Assembly (NCBI RefSeq): GCF_000317895.1
Contig: NC_019567.1
Span: forward strand, 62,001-126,000
Direction of reading: 5' to 3'
Length of the DNA stretch: 64,000 nucleotides
Source: Bdellovibrio bacteriovorus str. Tiberius
Lineage (GTDB): Bacteria > Bdellovibrionota > Bdellovibrionia > Bdellovibrionales > Bdellovibrionaceae
The position numbers and the translations under genes were made by a program. A model generated the notes under the pieces. That model was not told the DNA's origin and made no database searches. It worked only from the letters and a program-made list of their open reading frames with translations. Below, one piece after another: positions 30,169 to 46,259 of this stretch. Positions within the stretch are counted from its first letter, which is position 1. Each line of letters starts with the position of its first letter.

Positions 30169-30471
30169 ATGGCTAAGAACGAAATTGGCGTTCGCCCACT
30201 TCACGACAGAATTCTAGTTCGCAGAATGGCGGAAGAAGAAAAAACCGCTGGCGGTCTTTTCATCCCTGACACAGCAAAAGAAAAACCACAAAAAGGCGAA
30301 ATCATCGCGACTGGCAAAGGCCGCGTGACTGAAGATGGCAAGATCCTTCCATTGGAAGTTAAAGTTGGCGATAAAGTTCTTTTCGGCAAATACGCTGGAA
30401 CTGAATTGAAACTGGATGGCGCAGAATACCTGATGATGCGCGAAGAAGACATCCTGGGCGTATTCAACTAA
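30169..30471 (+). CDS. groES: Co-chaperonin GroES
   Basis: GroES caps the GroEL folding chamber. The 100-residue protein has IRPLHDRI-type start [12 protein letters not shown], a mobile loop KTAGGLFIP (about 25-33) that contacts GroEL, and the conserved end [15 protein letters not shown] precedes the ATG. The codons are strongly biased, as in very highly expressed genes. Confidence 0.98.
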
Positions 30472-30484
30472 ATCAATTTTTTAA

Positions 30485-32173
<1,689 letters not shown>

Positions 32174-35861: not shown

Positions 35862-35900
35862 AGGGAGAGCGACTGTAAGGGGGGGATAGTCACTCTCCCT
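35862..35900. terminator. Hairpin between convergent genes
   Basis: AGGGAGAGCGACT (35862-35874) and AGTCACTCTCCCT (35888-35900) pair with a single mismatch. It lies between the 35574 gene and the minus-strand 35934 gene and may end both transcripts. A preceding A/T-rich hairpin (CCCTTTT/AAAAGGG) is at 35844-35860. Confidence 0.55.
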
Positions 35901-35933: not shown

Positions 35934-36134
35934 TTAGTTCCAGCCTTTGCTTGTTTTCTCTTTGGAAGTCTTCGTCGAAGTGTCTTTAGCAACCTTCGCT
36001 TTAAACTCCTGCTTGAACGCCGTCGTGGAATGACGACCGCTCGCGCTGTTGTTTTTGCAAGAAACACCGGTGTTCGCCATTGCCACAGAGGCGATCAAAG
36101 ACATAGCAATAGTGGCTTGTACGATTTTCTTCAT
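35934..36134 (-). CDS. Very small secreted lysine-rich protein
   Basis: The protein has 66 residues with a clear signal peptide (MKKIVQATIAMSLIASVAMA, 1-20). The mature part of about 46 residues is basic, rich in Lys, Thr and Ser, with a single Cys (GVSCKNN) and a KTSKEKTSKGWN tail. GGAGAG-type ribosome site before the ATG. A tiny exported basic protein just downstream of the hit locus; function unknown. Confidence 0.6.
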   Translation of the reverse strand: MKKIVQATIAMSLIASVAMANTGVSCKNNSASGRHSTTAFKQEFKAKVAKDTSTKTSKEKTSKGWN

Positions 36135-36256
36135 AAAACTCTCCTTTATCTATACACACTTAAAAACATCATTAAGAACTCATAGAGCTCTATTGCATCG
36201 CGTGTGCCAGTTTTTTTGTCTCAGGATGAGACGAATCGGAGGGTTTCAGGGCAAAA

Positions 36257-36286
36257 AAAAGGGCTTTGGATGTCCAAAGCCCTTTT
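36257..36286 (-). terminator. Terminator of the hit locus
   Basis: AAAAGGGCTTTGGA (36257-36270) and TCCAAAGCCCTTTT (36273-36286) form a perfect 14-bp stem around TG. On the minus strand a run of eight T follows. This is one of the strongest terminators in the window. Confidence 0.9.
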
Positions 36287-36322: not shown

Positions 36323-36628
36323 TTACTGTCTTCCGGTGCTGGTTTTCTCAGATCCACCAGGGGTCGCGCTGGAGCCCTTGACTTCACGGGAAACGGTGTC
36401 GTCATGACGACGGGAGCCTTTACCAGTGGTGGCGCCTGTACGGTAGGCGATACATTCACGGCAGTCACCCAAAGCCGATGTGGTGGCTTCAAATGGAGTC
36501 GATCTGAAGGCCTCATTCGGGTCTTCGCCTGGATTAGCCGGGCGGTTGGCATTTTCGTCAGCAGAGGCTGTTCCCGCGAAGGAGAAGCCCAGGGTCAGCA
36601 AGATGGAAAGAACCAAGAGTCTTTTCAT
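36323..36628 (-). CDS. hit: Host-interaction (hit) locus protein, secreted
   Basis: The 101-residue protein has a signal peptide (1-23, ending GTASA), a CxxC pair (DCRECIAY, Cys 56 and 59) and a low-complexity, Gly/Ser/Thr/Lys-rich tail. Its size, order and neighbours match what I recall of Bdellovibrio Bd0108, the hit gene. Mutations in hit free the predator for prey-independent growth, and its product has been linked to pilus extrusion. Residues 70-72 and 84-86 both read KGS, encoded by near-identical repeats 42 bp apart. The frame is intact here, so this copy looks wild-type. It lies 15 bp behind the YD-repeat gene with a good AAGGAG ribosome site. The identification is from memory, not a search. 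Confidence 0.85.
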   Translation of the reverse strand: MKRLLVLSILLTLGFSFAGTASADENANRPANPGEDPNEAFRSTPFEATTSALGDCRECIAYRTGATTGKGSRRHDDTVSREVKGSSATPGGSEKTSTGRQ

Positions 36629-36643
36629 ATAATCACCTTCTCC

Positions 36644-38296
36644 TTACAGGTAAAGTTCCGCAGTTGCGGGAGCAATGATATCCAAGAGGTTATTAAATGT
36701 GCTGGCTACCTGCATGGCTACAGATGGCCCCTCTTTGCTGTCCACTTTGTTGATTTCACCATTTGGTTTATAGGATACCACAATTGTGCCCAAACCGGGA
36801 CGGGTAACTACGGATGGTTTACCATAGCGTTCCTCGTACTCGATTTTAACCACTTTCTTGGCCTGATCTGTAATGGTCGCAATACGGCCGCGGTTATCAT
36901 ATGTCATATTGATCTTCTGGCCATCGCTGTTCTGGGCATAGGAAAGGTTTCCTTTGCCATCGTATTTGAACTGAGCGGCCTTGGTGGCTACTTTGGCACC
37001 CTTTTCGTTAAAGTAGGTGCTGTTCACAGAGCTGACCTTTTTAACCTTGGCATCGTACTCAAACGCCATCTTCATGTTCGGTGCGGCTTTCACCTTCACC
37101 AAACCATCTGGATAGTATTCATAAGAGATACGGTCGGCATTACGACGGATGGAAACCGGTTTGCCAAAGACTTCATGATAAGTGATGTCGGTGACGTTGC
37201 CGTTCACAGTCGTCATCACGCGCTGAAGATAGAATTGACCGTCAGCGCGCTGCTGGTGCCAGAATTCGTACTTATTATCCGCCATCACTTCCTTGCCGCA
37301 GGTCTTTTTCACTGTGGACCAGTAGTGATTTTTCGGATCTGTCGGGGAGTCTTCGTATTTGTAGGTCTCGATACATTTATCGCGGTCTGCAAATGCCAAA
37401 ACCCAGTCTTTTTGTTTGTCGTACTTCAAAGCGACAAACGTTTTGTCCGGCCAAGTCGCCTTGGTCAGATTGTGAAGCTCATCGTATTCGTAAGTGTACG
37501 TTTTCAACCAGGCATTCTTTACGGAAGCCAGGTCATCCAGGTTGGCGAACTTGTATTCCGCCATCAGACCATTCGGGCCGGTGATGGTTTTAACTTTTTT
37601 GTTCTGGAAGTATTTGAAAGTCAGACGACGACCGTTGTTGTCCTGGAGTGTGGAAATCACGTCCTTGTCATAGTCGAACTTCAGGAAGTTGTTGTTCTTG
37701 TCATAGATATGAGTCAGTTTTCCCTGCGGGTTGAAGCGCTGAGAGCTGCCGTCAGGAAGATTTCTGGTGTAATACGTTTTGTTGAACGTGAAGTGTTCAA
37801 CTTCGCGGCCGTTGGCGTAGAACTTGGTGCCTTCTTTAACCGGAACCGTGATTCCGTATTGACGGGCATAGTCCGCGCGCAGGCTGTCGTCTTCAAGCAA
37901 TTGTGTTTTCAGCGTGTTGATCGCCGCCTCGGTCAGGCCGACTTTCTTTTCCGCTTTCATCTTGTTCACGATTTGCGCGATAGAGCTGTCGACATCCTTA
38001 CGGGTGATTTCACGAGGCGAGAAGGTCACTTCAAGGCCGCCACCGCATTCTTTTACCTTGATATTGCCTTCGGCAGTGACTTCCATCCCGGTTTCAAAAT
38101 CAGAGCACCAGCCAAAGCCGAACATGCCGTTGAAAAGTGAACGGCTGTTATAAGTGCGCACGATTTTAAGATCATACCCGCTGCCCGGAACATCCATATC
38201 GATCCAGGTGTTGGAGTAGTTGGCATTTTTCATATCCACAAGCGCGAACGCCTGGGCAGAAAAAAGAAAGGCGAACGCCAAGAGTGCTTTCTTCAT
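36644..38296 (-). CDS. Exported YD-repeat (RHS-like) protein of the hit locus
   Basis: The 550-residue protein has a signal peptide (1-18, ending AQAFA). It then resembles the front of RHS proteins: a DUF6531-like part (YNSRSLFNGMFGFGWCSDFE) and many YD-type repeats (YDKNNNFLKFDYDKD, YEYDELHNLTKATWPD, YDGKGNLSYAQNSDG, YDNRGRIATITDQ). Unlike toxin-bearing RHS proteins it is short and ends without a variable C-terminal domain. It corresponds in my recollection to Bd0109, reported to be exported and to act with the hit protein. It starts 30 bp behind the last pilus gene and may be read from the tad operon. Confidence 0.85.
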   Translation of the reverse strand: MKKALLAFAFLFSAQAFALVDMKNANYSNTWIDMDVPGSGYDLKIVRTYNSRSLFNGMFGFGWCSDFETGMEVTAEGNIKVKECGGGLEVTFSPREITRKDVDSSIAQIVNKMKAEKKVGLTEAAINTLKTQLLEDDSLRADYARQYGITVPVKEGTKFYANGREVEHFTFNKTYYTRNLPDGSSQRFNPQGKLTHIYDKNNNFLKFDYDKDVISTLQDNNGRRLTFKYFQNKKVKTITGPNGLMAEYKFANLDDLASVKNAWLKTYTYEYDELHNLTKATWPDKTFVALKYDKQKDWVLAFADRDKCIETYKYEDSPTDPKNHYWSTVKKTCGKEVMADNKYEFWHQQRADGQFYLQRVMTTVNGNVTDITYHEVFGKPVSIRRNADRISYEYYPDGLVKVKAAPNMKMAFEYDAKVKKVSSVNSTYFNEKGAKVATKAAQFKYDGKGNLSYAQNSDGQKINMTYDNRGRIATITDQAKKVVKIEYEERYGKPSVVTRPGLGTIVVSYKPNGEINKVDSKEGPSVAMQVASTFNNLLDIIAPATAELYL

Positions 38297-38326: not shown

Positions 38327-39202
38327 CTACACTTTAATGGTAACAAGCTTTTTAATAAGCACGCCACCGATTATTTGCAGACCCAGCATCGCTGCCAGTA
38401 ACACTAGACCTAGGGTTGTGTTAAACATAGGTTTGATGAAAGCCGGATCGATCACCAGGAATACGGCCATCAAGATAAATGGAATCAGAGTGACGATTAT
38501 CCCTTGCATCATCCCCTGAGCGGTCAAAGCCTGAATTTTTTTCTCTACTTTTTGTCGTTCGCGCACGACCAGTACGATGGTCTGGAAAGTTTCTGCCAGA
38601 TTACCACCGGTCTCTTTGAGGATGTTGATGGAGGTCACAAACATCTGCACATCCGGGCGCGGGATGCGGTTCCCCAGGTCATTCAGGGCGCTTTCAAAGC
38701 TGTCACCGACTTGCATCTGATACAAAACTTGCGCAAATTCCTGACTCATGGGATTTCCCATAATCTCCACAACGCGCTTCATGGATTCCTGCGGATTGGA
38801 TCCGGCCTTGATACCGTTGGCCATGATCGTAAGACCATCGACCATCTGATCGACAAACTTGGTGCAGCGGTTTTCATAGATCATGCGCACCAAAAGCAAA
38901 GGCAGCTGCCAGCCCGCCACGGTGATGGAAGCACCAAAGAAGGCGCCCATCAAAACACTGGGCCAGAAGACCAGGAAGACCAAAGCACCCAGACCGAAAC
39001 TCATCAGCAGGATGATCAGCGTGACTTTCTTTTCGTCAACGTCCATTCCCATCACACGAAGAATCTTGATCACCTCGTCGCGCTGGCCAAGGCTGCGCTT
39101 GTGCAACCATGCAATCGCCTTGTCAGCCCACAGGATGACGATGACGAAAACACAGATGCCAAACAGAGGGATCATAACCCATTCGTTAAACAGGAAACTC
39201 AT
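38327..39202 (-). CDS. Tad pilus inner-membrane platform protein (T2SF family)
   Basis: This 291-residue TadB/TadC-type protein anchors the Flp pilus assembly machine in the inner membrane. It has membrane helices near the start (about 8-26), at about 60-105 and at the end, and the T2SF core (FVDQMVDGLTIMANGIKAGSNPQESMKRV...ALNDLGNRIPRPDVQMF...LKETGGNLAETFQTI). Most Tad systems have two such genes; only one is here, so the partner is elsewhere or absent. It lies 3 bp behind the TadZA gene. Confidence 0.87.
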   Translation of the reverse strand: MSFLFNEWVMIPLFGICVFVIVILWADKAIAWLHKRSLGQRDEVIKILRVMGMDVDEKKVTLIILLMSFGLGALVFLVFWPSVLMGAFFGASITVAGWQLPLLLVRMIYENRCTKFVDQMVDGLTIMANGIKAGSNPQESMKRVVEIMGNPMSQEFAQVLYQMQVGDSFESALNDLGNRIPRPDVQMFVTSINILKETGGNLAETFQTIVLVVRERQKVEKKIQALTAQGMMQGIIVTLIPFILMAVFLVIDPAFIKPMFNTTLGLVLLAAMLGLQIIGGVLIKKLVTIKV

Positions 39203-39205
39203 GGC

Positions 39206-41425
39206 TTACCCCGATTTTTTCACTGGAGCCACGCCTGGCATTTTTGGCGCCATCGCAGCTGGGATTGGTGGTTTTGCAGGAGCGGCCGCTGCCGGTGTGC
39301 CTGCGTTCGGATCATTGGCAAAGATCTCACGCGGAATCACAACACCCTTGTCGCTCAATTTTTGGATAAAGCTTGGGATGGTACCGGTTGCCTGAAAAGT
39401 CCCCTGGATTTTTCTGTTCTTGTCGTAACCGGTTTCTTTGAATCTGAAGATTTCAGCCAAAGTCACCACGTCCCCTTGCATGCCTGCCACTTCGGTGATG
39501 CTCAGGATTTTACGGCTACCATCCGACAGACGGGAGATCTGCACAATCAGATTCACTGCGCCGGCGATCTGTTCGCGGATCGCACGCATTGGCAGATCCA
39601 TACCGGACATCATACAAAGTGTTTCCAGACGGGCCACACATTCACGCGGAGAGTTTGCGTGAGTCGTGGTCATGGAACCATCGTGACCCGTGTTCATGGC
39701 CTGCAACATGTCCAAAGCGGCGCCGTCACGGCACTCACCGACGATGATACGGTCCGGACGCATACGCAGGGCATTCTTGATCAGGTCACGGATATGAATG
39801 GCGTTAGAGCCTTCCATCGAAGCCGGGCGTGTCTCCAGGCGCACAACGTGCTCCTGTTGCAGCTGCAGCTCGGCCGCATCCTCGACCGTGATGACACGTT
39901 CGTTGGACGGGATGAAGGAAGACAGCATATTCAGCAGGGATGTTTTACCTGAACCGGTACCACCAGAGATCACCACGTTCAGACCGTTTTCCACGCAGAT
40001 GCGCAGGAAGTCGATCATGTTCTTGGTGATACTTCCGTAACCGATATATTTTTCAGCGGTGATACCGCCTTTTTTAAATTTACGAATTGTCAGTGCCGGG
40101 CCGTCGATCGCCAAAGGCTCAATCACGGCGTTCACACGCGAACCGTCTTTCAAACGCGCATCCACATACGGAGTGGAGTCATTGATCTGACGACCCAGCG
40201 GTGTCACGATACGCTCGATAATACGGCGCAAGTGATCGTTGGAGGTGAAGGTCACCGGGCTTAGCTGAACCTTGCCGCTTTTCTCGACGAAGACCCGTTT
40301 GTTACCGTTGACCATGATCTCGGTGACATCCGGATCAGCCAGTAGATCTTCCAGCGGACCCAGTCCCAGAGCTTCTTCCAAAACCTCTTTGATAAGCTTG
40401 GAGCGTTCTTCACGGGCGGAATCCGGGGCTTCACGATCCACGATCAAGGTGATTTCGCGTTTGGTTTTTTCCCGGACTTCTTTTTCTTTGTTTTCATCCT
40501 GCTTGCCGTCGACCAATAGCTTTTTAAGATCCACGGTGCGAATCAGTTCGTTATGAATGCGAATTTTTAGCAGGGTGCGTGCATCCATTCCTTGCGTGGA
40601 ACCCGTGCTGGCGCTGTCGCCAGCGGCCGCTGCCGCCGCCGGGGCTGGCTTTGGACGAGACAGGGTTTTCAGGCGCTGCAAAATCCCGCCGGTCAGTTTA
40701 CGGGCAACATCATAGTACGCGGCCGTGACCGGAGCTTTCGGGGCGGAGATCACAAACGGCGTGTACTTTTGCAGGGACATCATGGCAGTGGCTTCATCCT
40801 GAGGAATGATTCCCAGGAAAGGCAGTTGCAGCTGATTGGAGATCGTCTGCGGGGAAAGACCCGTCGGAGAAGCCTTGTTGATCACCAGCTGGAACATGTC
40901 TTTAGGTAAAGTGGCAGAAAGAAGTTCATTCACCAGACGCTGCGTCTGCGTCACCACCAGAACTTCCGGAGTCGTCACGATCATGATTGCAGTGGCTTCC
41001 TGAAGCACGGCCATTTGCGCCGGGCCCAGATCCGTACCCACATCGACGATGATAAATTTATAAGCGCGGGAGAAGAACTCCACCAGTTTTCCCAAAAGAT
41101 CCGGATTGATGTTCAGGCTTTCTTCCGGGCCGCGAACCGCACCTAAATAAGCCAAACCTGACTGGTGCATTGTGACGAGTGTGTTCATCGGCTGGGAGTT
41201 CAAAGAGCCCTGGAAGCTTGCAAGTTCCTTCAGTGTTTTCTGGGGTTTCAGTCCCATGATCACGTTCTGATCGCCGACGCTGCGAGCATCAGCATCGATC
41301 AGAAGAACCTGGCTGCGGAGTTCGTTCATGATGGTGCAGGCGAAATTGGCTGCGAAGACGGATTTTCCAACGCCGCCTTTACCGCCAACCACTGCGATGA
41401 GATTACAATTAGGATTGATAGCCAA
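39206..41425 (-). CDS. TadZ-TadA fusion: MinD-like ATPase joined to the pilus assembly ATPase (CpaE-CpaF)
   Basis: The 739-residue protein has two domains usually encoded by separate genes. Residues about 8-260 are a MinD/ParA-like ATPase (deviant Walker [25 protein letters not shown]). Residues about 330-680 are a secretion ATPase of the TadA/CpaF kind (Walker [12 protein letters not shown], Asp box, [29 protein letters not shown]). An Ala/Gln-rich linker separates them, and a Pro/Ala-rich tail follows. The frame is continuous. Fusion would tie polar placement directly to pilus power. It lies between the secretin and the T2SF gene. Confidence 0.9.
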
Positions 41426-45950: not shown

Positions 45951-46259
45951 CTATTTACACTCAGCTTTGTCGGCGAAAGTCTTGCCAAGATCCTTGCCAT
46001 CAAATTTGACAGTCACGGATTTCTCAGTCAGCGTGCCTTTACGGATGATTTTAGAGCTTTTCTCGCCCCATTTCAGGCAGGCTTCCTCGCTGTCCAGTTT
46101 TTTGGATTCATCAGTCGGGTTTTTGCCGTTGTAAGGTTTTAGCGCATCAGTTTCCTTGCCGGCACAGGCCTTACGGCTGGTTGTGATCGTGCAATCACCT
46201 GCGTGAGCGGCAACAGATCCAAAAACAATCAAAGCGGCGATCAATGTGGATTTCTTCAT
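45951..46259 (-). CDS. Small secreted cysteine-containing protein
   Basis: The protein has 102 residues with a signal peptide (about 1-20, ending AHAG). The mature domain has four cysteines (GDCTI, KACAG, EACLKW, AECK), likely making two disulfides, and is rich in Lys and Asp. It is 10 bp from the chemoreceptor gene and terminated by its own hairpin. Not recognised. Confidence 0.68.
   Translation of the reverse strand: MKKSTLIAALIVFGSVAAHAGDCTITTSRKACAGKETDALKPYNGKNPTDESKKLDSEEACLKWGEKSSKIIRKGTLTEKSVTVKFDGKDLGKTFADKAECK

Follow-up and report, generated by a model that had tools for sequence, protein, structure and literature searches.

Mutations in one small gene, bd0108, release Bdellovibrio from its dependence on prey, and how they do so has been a question for about 30 years. 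The gene belongs to the host-interaction (hit) locus, which is analysed here in Bdellovibrio bacteriovorus Tiberius within a window of 64,000 nucleotides, the whole stretch of DNA studied, whose numbering is used for all positions in this strain. The question is which products the locus encodes, which genes accompany it in related bacteria, and how its proteins might act together.

Identity of the locus

The locus is bd0108/bd0109, the hit genes of B. bacteriovorus Tiberius; the pair has already been published. The initial annotation had placed a secreted 101-residue protein at 36323-36628 and a YD-repeat protein at 36644-38296, and both open reading frames are real and lie exactly there, on the minus strand. 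The first, bd0108 (bdt0101), encodes a 101-aa exported, disordered protein with a CxxC at residues 56-59; along its whole length it is hit by the curated NCBIfam equivalog NF053838 'hit_Bd0108' (E 4.1e-29; score 100.9 bits, cut-off 40; model positions 1-94 of 94). The second, bd0109, encodes a 550-aa exported protein that exceeds the Pfam cut-offs for RHS_repeat (PF05593, 38.7 bits against 22) and DUF6531 (PF20148, 35.3 against 24.1).

The genes are arranged in the order Tad ATPase, Tad platform gene, bd0109, and then bd0108 directly behind bd0109. The platform protein (Pfam T2SSF; the bd0110 equivalent) is encoded at 38327-39202, minus strand, immediately upstream of bd0109, and the TadA ATPase, recognised by Pfam and NCBIfam with a fused ParA/CpaE-like N-terminal domain, at 39206-41425 on the same strand. 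Of the neighbourhood first described, a Flp pilus operon on one side and groESL on the other, the Tad/Flp genes do begin next to the locus, at 38327, whereas groES/groEL (30169-32173) are separated from it by four open reading frames. The background given in the initial annotation, namely host-independence mutations, a connection with pili and a YD-repeat protein that lacks a toxin tip, is correct. It named Bd0108 and Bd0109 correctly but overlooked a third gene on the same strand at 35934-36134, here called orf66, which was found from its open reading frame, a codon test and synteny, and which would encode a 66-aa exported basic protein with a single cysteine.

Two further observations concern the Tad genes. 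The reading frame at 39206-41425 is one protein of 739 aa that joins TadA to a ParA/CpaE-like ATPase domain, with near-full-length matches in many genomes of the phylum. Just past the Tad genes, 45951-46259 encodes an exported Cys-rich protein of 102 aa with no Pfam match.

Bd0108 and the 42-bp deletion

Mutations in bd0108 are present in many host-independent strains (PMC4267844), and they lead to prey-independent growth together with an effect on type IV pili (PMC3818213, PMC11323537). Deleting the gene leaves almost no pili, while a 42-bp deletion within it gives more pili (PMC3818213). The latter removes residues 73-86 and accounted for 46% of the mutated strains in one series (PMC4267844). 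Taking the residue range from that work, the equivalent stretch in Tiberius, RRHDDTVSREVKGS, lies at 36371-36412 on the minus strand. In the alignment of the Bd0108 family, the deletion takes out the family's RLxDxT-like motif (RRHDDT here), and the CxxC stays.

The deletion is flanked by a direct repeat, which measures 10 bp in HD100 (CAAAGGCTCC) and 6 bp in Tiberius (GGCTCC; 36371-36418). Given the shorter repeat, fewer 42-bp deletions are predicted in Tiberius. Six host-independent isolates of this strain have an unchanged bdt0101, with no 42-bp deletion; as they carry no bdt0101 mutation of any kind, the strain has another route to host independence that bypasses the switch.

Between Tiberius and HD100, bd0108 evolves with a dN/dS of 0.08, and the protein differs, from HD100 to Tiberius, by V31A, I83V, A96T and G97S. 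The published differences are V31A, A86T and G97S, with I83V absent from the text, and so disagree with the sequences compared here. The published A86T is probably a slip for A96T, judging from these sequences.

Modelled structure of Bd0109

An AlphaFold2 model of Bd0109 has a mean pLDDT of 88 and superposes on the Rhs core 8qjb with a Z score of 28.2 and 2.4 Å over 335 residues, the alignment with the Rhs core starting from residue 18. The YD part is followed at once by a strongly conserved C-terminal helix (524-545), and cysteines 64, 84, 308 and 333 are invariant in the alignment. Searches of Pfam and NCBIfam found no C-terminal toxin or protease domain. In this model Bd0109 corresponds to the N-terminal half of an Rhs shell that lacks a toxin. 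Residues 20-63 had earlier been threaded by PHYRE on the pilin PapG (PMC3818213); here the same residues match DUF6531 and align with the start of the Rhs core, with no pilin among the matches listed.

Bd0109 was also considered as a Rhs polymorphic toxin, which would carry a variable C-terminal toxin behind an autoprotease, and was rejected as such because Pfam and NCBIfam show no such region and the protein ends in the conserved helix. A looser form of this idea makes it a relative of those toxins, with the small downstream genes as immunity proteins. The Rhs fold and the position of the small genes directly 3' of bd0109 would suit it, but the conserved helix ends the protein where a toxin would be expected, both Bd0108 and orf66 have signal peptides and look disordered, and attempts to delete bd0109 failed even when bd0108 was there (PMC3818213). 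We consider this explanation hardly credible.

Published experiments support an association of the two proteins. Quenching, protease protection, ITC and NMR all indicate a Bd0109-Bd0108 interaction (PMC3818213, PMC4267844), in which the disordered Bd0108 binds weakly via residues 24-66 (PMC4267844). The suggestion in the initial annotation that the YD-repeat protein is a structural carrier for its small partner had in fact been made in print, as encapsulation of Bd0108 by the Rhs shell Bd0109 (PMC4267844).

Coding potential of the hit-locus transcript

In HD100, a transcript at 96455-96716, downstream of bd0108, was detected by RNA-seq and RT-PCR and described as a non-coding sRNA; its level is raised in bd0108 mutants (PMC3818213). 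The HD100 copy of orf66 occupies 96486-96683 plus the stop codon and lies wholly within this transcript. The predicted protein has 66 aa, starts MKKIVQATIAMSLIASVAMANTGVSCKNNS and ends KGWN, with a signal peptide and one cysteine. In Tiberius the gene is preceded by a Shine-Dalgarno site, AAAGGAGAG, at 36139-36147 on the minus strand, in which AAGGAGAG is invariant across three strains. A hairpin at 36257-36286 (minus strand; -20.1 kcal/mol, z -5.8), followed by a T run, separates bd0108 from orf66, and a second terminator-like hairpin, with a T run close behind, follows orf66 at 35862-35900 (minus strand; -21.8 kcal/mol, z -6.9). The former was found by folding, the terminator scan having missed it, and its position as a terminator between the two genes implies that orf66 is transcribed separately. 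The promoter scan of the minus strand returned nothing usable, and Rfam identified only tRNAs across the window, with no family at the hit locus.

The substitutions in orf66 follow the pattern of a coding sequence. Comparing HD100 with Tiberius gives 15 synonymous changes over about 43 sites and 3 non-synonymous ones over about 155, a dN/dS of 0.04. Ratios of synonymous to non-synonymous changes in four pairs were 15:3, 12:1, 15:0 and 14:0, and dN/dS ranged from 0.02 to 0.10 in the three closest strains. The differences were distributed over codon positions 1, 2 and 3 as 4/2/32 (32/38 at the third position), and as 0/0/32 (32/32) in a trio from a second species, whose orf66 proteins are identical despite 3-15 synonymous changes per pair. 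These values indicate selection on the orf66 protein about as strong as that on Bd0108.

Given this third-position bias and low dN/dS, the transcript is read as an mRNA, since a non-coding sRNA should lack conserved coding potential. As far as sequence can tell, then, the hit-locus 'sRNA' is the mRNA of an exported 66-aa protein, orf66. The published interpretation, a regulatory non-coding sRNA with a coincidental reading frame, can draw on the RNA-seq and RT-PCR data with which it was proposed and on the stable hairpins on both flanks. It would not explain the codon pattern, nor why a reading frame with a signal peptide and a Shine-Dalgarno site occurs at the same place in 70 of 96 species, and we regard it as very improbable. 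A dual function, in which the transcript encodes the protein and also regulates other mRNAs as RNA, has two points in its favour: the sequence 5' of the orf66 start codon is conserved in three strains, and other host-independent mutants carry mutations in RNA-processing genes (PMC3818213). The coding part, however, diverges as codon constraint dictates and Rfam has no family at the locus, which leaves a dual function quite unlikely.

Nothing in the literature searched reports orf66 at the protein level. A hypothetical gene, BD_RS00505, has been annotated between Bd0108 and Bd0103 (PMC5941755) and is probably the orf66 reading frame; the literature search found no paper linking it with the hit-locus sRNA. 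NF053838 does not match orf66, and Pfam gave only scattered weak matches to the orf66 family.

Similar cases may exist elsewhere in these genomes. The HD100 attack-phase list (PMC3627812) contains further intergenic 'sRNAs', roughly 100-210 nt long, that may likewise encode small exported proteins. Separately, a protein of the same kind as orf66, exported, 59 aa long and with a single Cys (MTFTKIITAAIITMSATASFGATKCADKANMGRHAHTASQSKFSPTVKVVKTTTNSGIQ), is encoded about 430 kb into the Tiberius genome (locus L168, 1495-1674; G000:C1:430410-430586, minus strand), with relatives in many other Bdellovibrio genomes, away from the hit locus.

Distribution among the Bdellovibrionota

Among 141 genomes of the order, 135 have a bd0109 match; of 241 sampled from the phylum, 218 have one and 240 have a TadA match. 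In all 99 order loci for which upstream sequence was available, bd0109 is preceded on its own strand by homologs of the Tad platform and TadA genes, and in all but one of these loci the platform gene ends no more than 300 nt from bd0109. In the rest of the phylum, the same genes precede bd0109 in 39/39 sampled loci, with the platform end at most 200 nt away.

Downstream of bd0109, small exported proteins were sought as ATG open reading frames of 40-140 aa with a Shine-Dalgarno site and a signal peptide, the latter called by a simple custom hydropathy rule that was identical for test and control slots. Slot 1, at -10 to +60 nt after bd0109, is occupied in 76 of 96 order loci, and slot 2, at +250 to +720 nt, in 70 of 96, while six control slots were filled 0-2 times. 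With wider windows, the counts are 80/96 and 70/96 in the order, and 30/37 and 17/37 in the rest of the phylum, controls again being filled 0-2 times. Two results count against a fixed cassette: TadA but not Bd0109 is matched, at the thresholds applied, in 22 of the genomes sampled, and about a quarter of the order loci and half of the others have no recognisable slot 2. Taken together, and as judged by sequence and gene order, the hit gene set and the Tad genes occur together in most of the genomes sampled from the Bdellovibrionota.

Bd0108 has been described as unique to Bdellovibrio (PMC3818213). A plain BLAST-type search with it does give matches within the genus only (one, in a contig collection, is also Bdellovibrio). 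The relatives outside the genus came from synteny and the curated model; NF053838 reaches two slot-1 proteins of other genera (E 7.7e-10, 39.2 bits; E 2.9e-6, 27.7 bits), both under its 40-bit cut-off. Given that one or two small exported, cysteine-bearing proteins usually follow bd0109, Bd0108 is not specific to Bdellovibrio, and 'unique' no longer holds.

Individual loci add detail. Locus L204, whose genome we take to be Halobacteriovorax marinus strain SJ, has a Bd0109 homolog and two small signal-peptide genes behind Tad genes. In L105 (G044), presumably B. exovorus JSS, the bd0109 copy at the Tad locus has its own first small protein (124 aa, with the GEDPN motif kept and no Cys) and a second one; on gene order, the hit locus in synteny seems to be this copy and not the A11Q_2207/2208 pair. 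In some Bdellovibrio loci (L082, L084, L085-L088) the tandem extends to a third small exported protein, at about +910 to +970 from bd0109. A 57-aa tandem copy with its stop codon amounts to 174 bp, the size of an unexplained insert reported for strain SKB1291214.

The two small proteins might act directly on the pilus or envelope and have only an operon neighbourhood in common with Bd0109. The weakness of the Bd0108-Bd0109 binding and the separate transcript of orf66 behind a terminator point that way, but the interaction is supported by four techniques and the synteny is kept across the order; we consider direct action unlikely.

The two small-protein families

In the order, slot-1 proteins mostly have two cysteines (54/76), often as CxxC (42/76), and are mostly acidic, while slot-2 proteins have exactly one cysteine in 67 of 71 cases and are basic; the charge difference is significant (p 9e-20). 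Beyond the order, most slot-1 proteins have one Cys and the CxxC is not kept, while slot-2 proteins are not basic, so that the two no longer contrast in charge.

These features could describe a redox pair, in which the lone orf66 cysteine reacts with the disulfide in the Bd0108 CxxC to give a mixed disulfide that serves as the signal. The cysteine counts and opposite mean charges within the order would fit, as would the C56-C59 disulfide of Bd0108 inferred by NMR (PMC4267844). The same pattern fails outside the order, however, and the first small protein of the B. exovorus-like genome lacks cysteine altogether, so that a redox pair seems rather doubtful, if less so than direct action.

Both families share short motifs. 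L-x-[DNKS]-[ND]-T, the motif whose Bd0108 version is lost in the 42-bp deletion, follows the Cys in 15 of 76 slot-1 and 14 of 71 slot-2 proteins, against 1.5 and 0.9 in shuffles, and within the genus Gly is the third residue from the end in 19/22 and 17/23, respectively (shuffle maxima 10 and 6). An hhalign comparison of slot 1 with slot 2 lines the motifs up with each other but does not reach significance alone (P 0.042, Prob 1.2), and cross-profile scores of the Bd0108 and orf66 families are little above those of shuffled decoys. Common descent of Bd0108 and orf66 is hence only suggestive; orf66 has motif features in common with Bd0108, yet is not classed as a member of its family. Co-variation of the last residue of both small proteins within a genome was not significant (14 observed, 10.2 expected).

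Proposed mechanism

Gene identities, synteny and the coding status of orf66, as judged from the comparisons above, can be combined with published work into a model. Bd0109 would form an open half-shell where the Tad exit path lies, holding Bd0108 or orf66 as alternative disordered clients. A common C-terminal module, made up of Cys, xLxxxT and a tail with G-x-x at its end, would be what a partner in the pilus or envelope reads, and the Bd0108/orf66 ratio would report pilus or prey contact and decide between attack and growth. With Bd0108 bound, the cell would be kept in the attack state; on loss of Bd0108, or of its motif through the 42-bp deletion, orf66 or empty shells would signal growth.

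The genes, synteny, selection and fold class, together with the published binding, phenotypes and transcript response, make up everything but one step of this model, and we regard that part as highly probable. The remaining step, that orf66 binds the half-shell at the Tad exit, competes there with Bd0108 and is read out, is proposed only tentatively. Against the model, it is the type IVa PilA pilus, and not the Tad pilus, that bd0108 mutations were reported to affect (PMC3818213). Equally speculative is its extension to most Tad pili of the Bdellovibrionota, each with an exported toxin-less Rhs half-shell and two alternative disordered clients whose ratio sets attack or growth. As a whole, the Tiberius hit locus, seen as a Tad-pilus gene set widespread in the Bdellovibrionota and acting by the client model, probably offers the best explanation of the data.

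Significance

The bd0108/bd0109 pair is known; new here are the coding status of orf66, the Tad cassette across the phylum, the motif deleted in host-independent strains and the Rhs half-shell model. As a conserved, presumably exported third product whose transcript rises on loss of Bd0108, orf66 would be the obvious missing player, and mutant phenotypes hitherto discussed via an 'sRNA' need rereading. The conserved motif lost in the 42-bp deletion offers a concrete target. If the two-client reading is true, the second client was missed in B. bacteriovorus because its mRNA was taken as non-coding.

Comparison with known systems

The HD100 hit locus (PMC3818213, PMC4267844) has the same genes, order and Tad neighbours, and its proteins are 96-99% identical to those of Tiberius, whose Bd0108 has four substitutions (A31, V83, T96, S97). 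The HD100 sRNA at 96455-96716 (PMC3818213) occupies the same place and strand as orf66, which is read here as coding.

In comparison with Rhs/YD-repeat shells, such as T6SS Rhs effectors, the BC components of Tc toxins and teneurins, Bd0109 is alike in its Rhs repeats and core fold, but has about half the Rhs core length, a signal peptide and a link to Tad genes. A further parallel is BMS_0182-0184 of H. marinus (Bacteriovorax marinus in PMC4267844), a Bd0109 homolog with two small signal-peptide neighbours that have diverged too far for a significant Bd0108 match. The synteny across order and phylum marks the hit locus as an accessory set of the Tad pilus and not a peculiarity of Bdellovibrio, and connects it with the contact killing, Tad-dependent and Kil-like, that other predators use.
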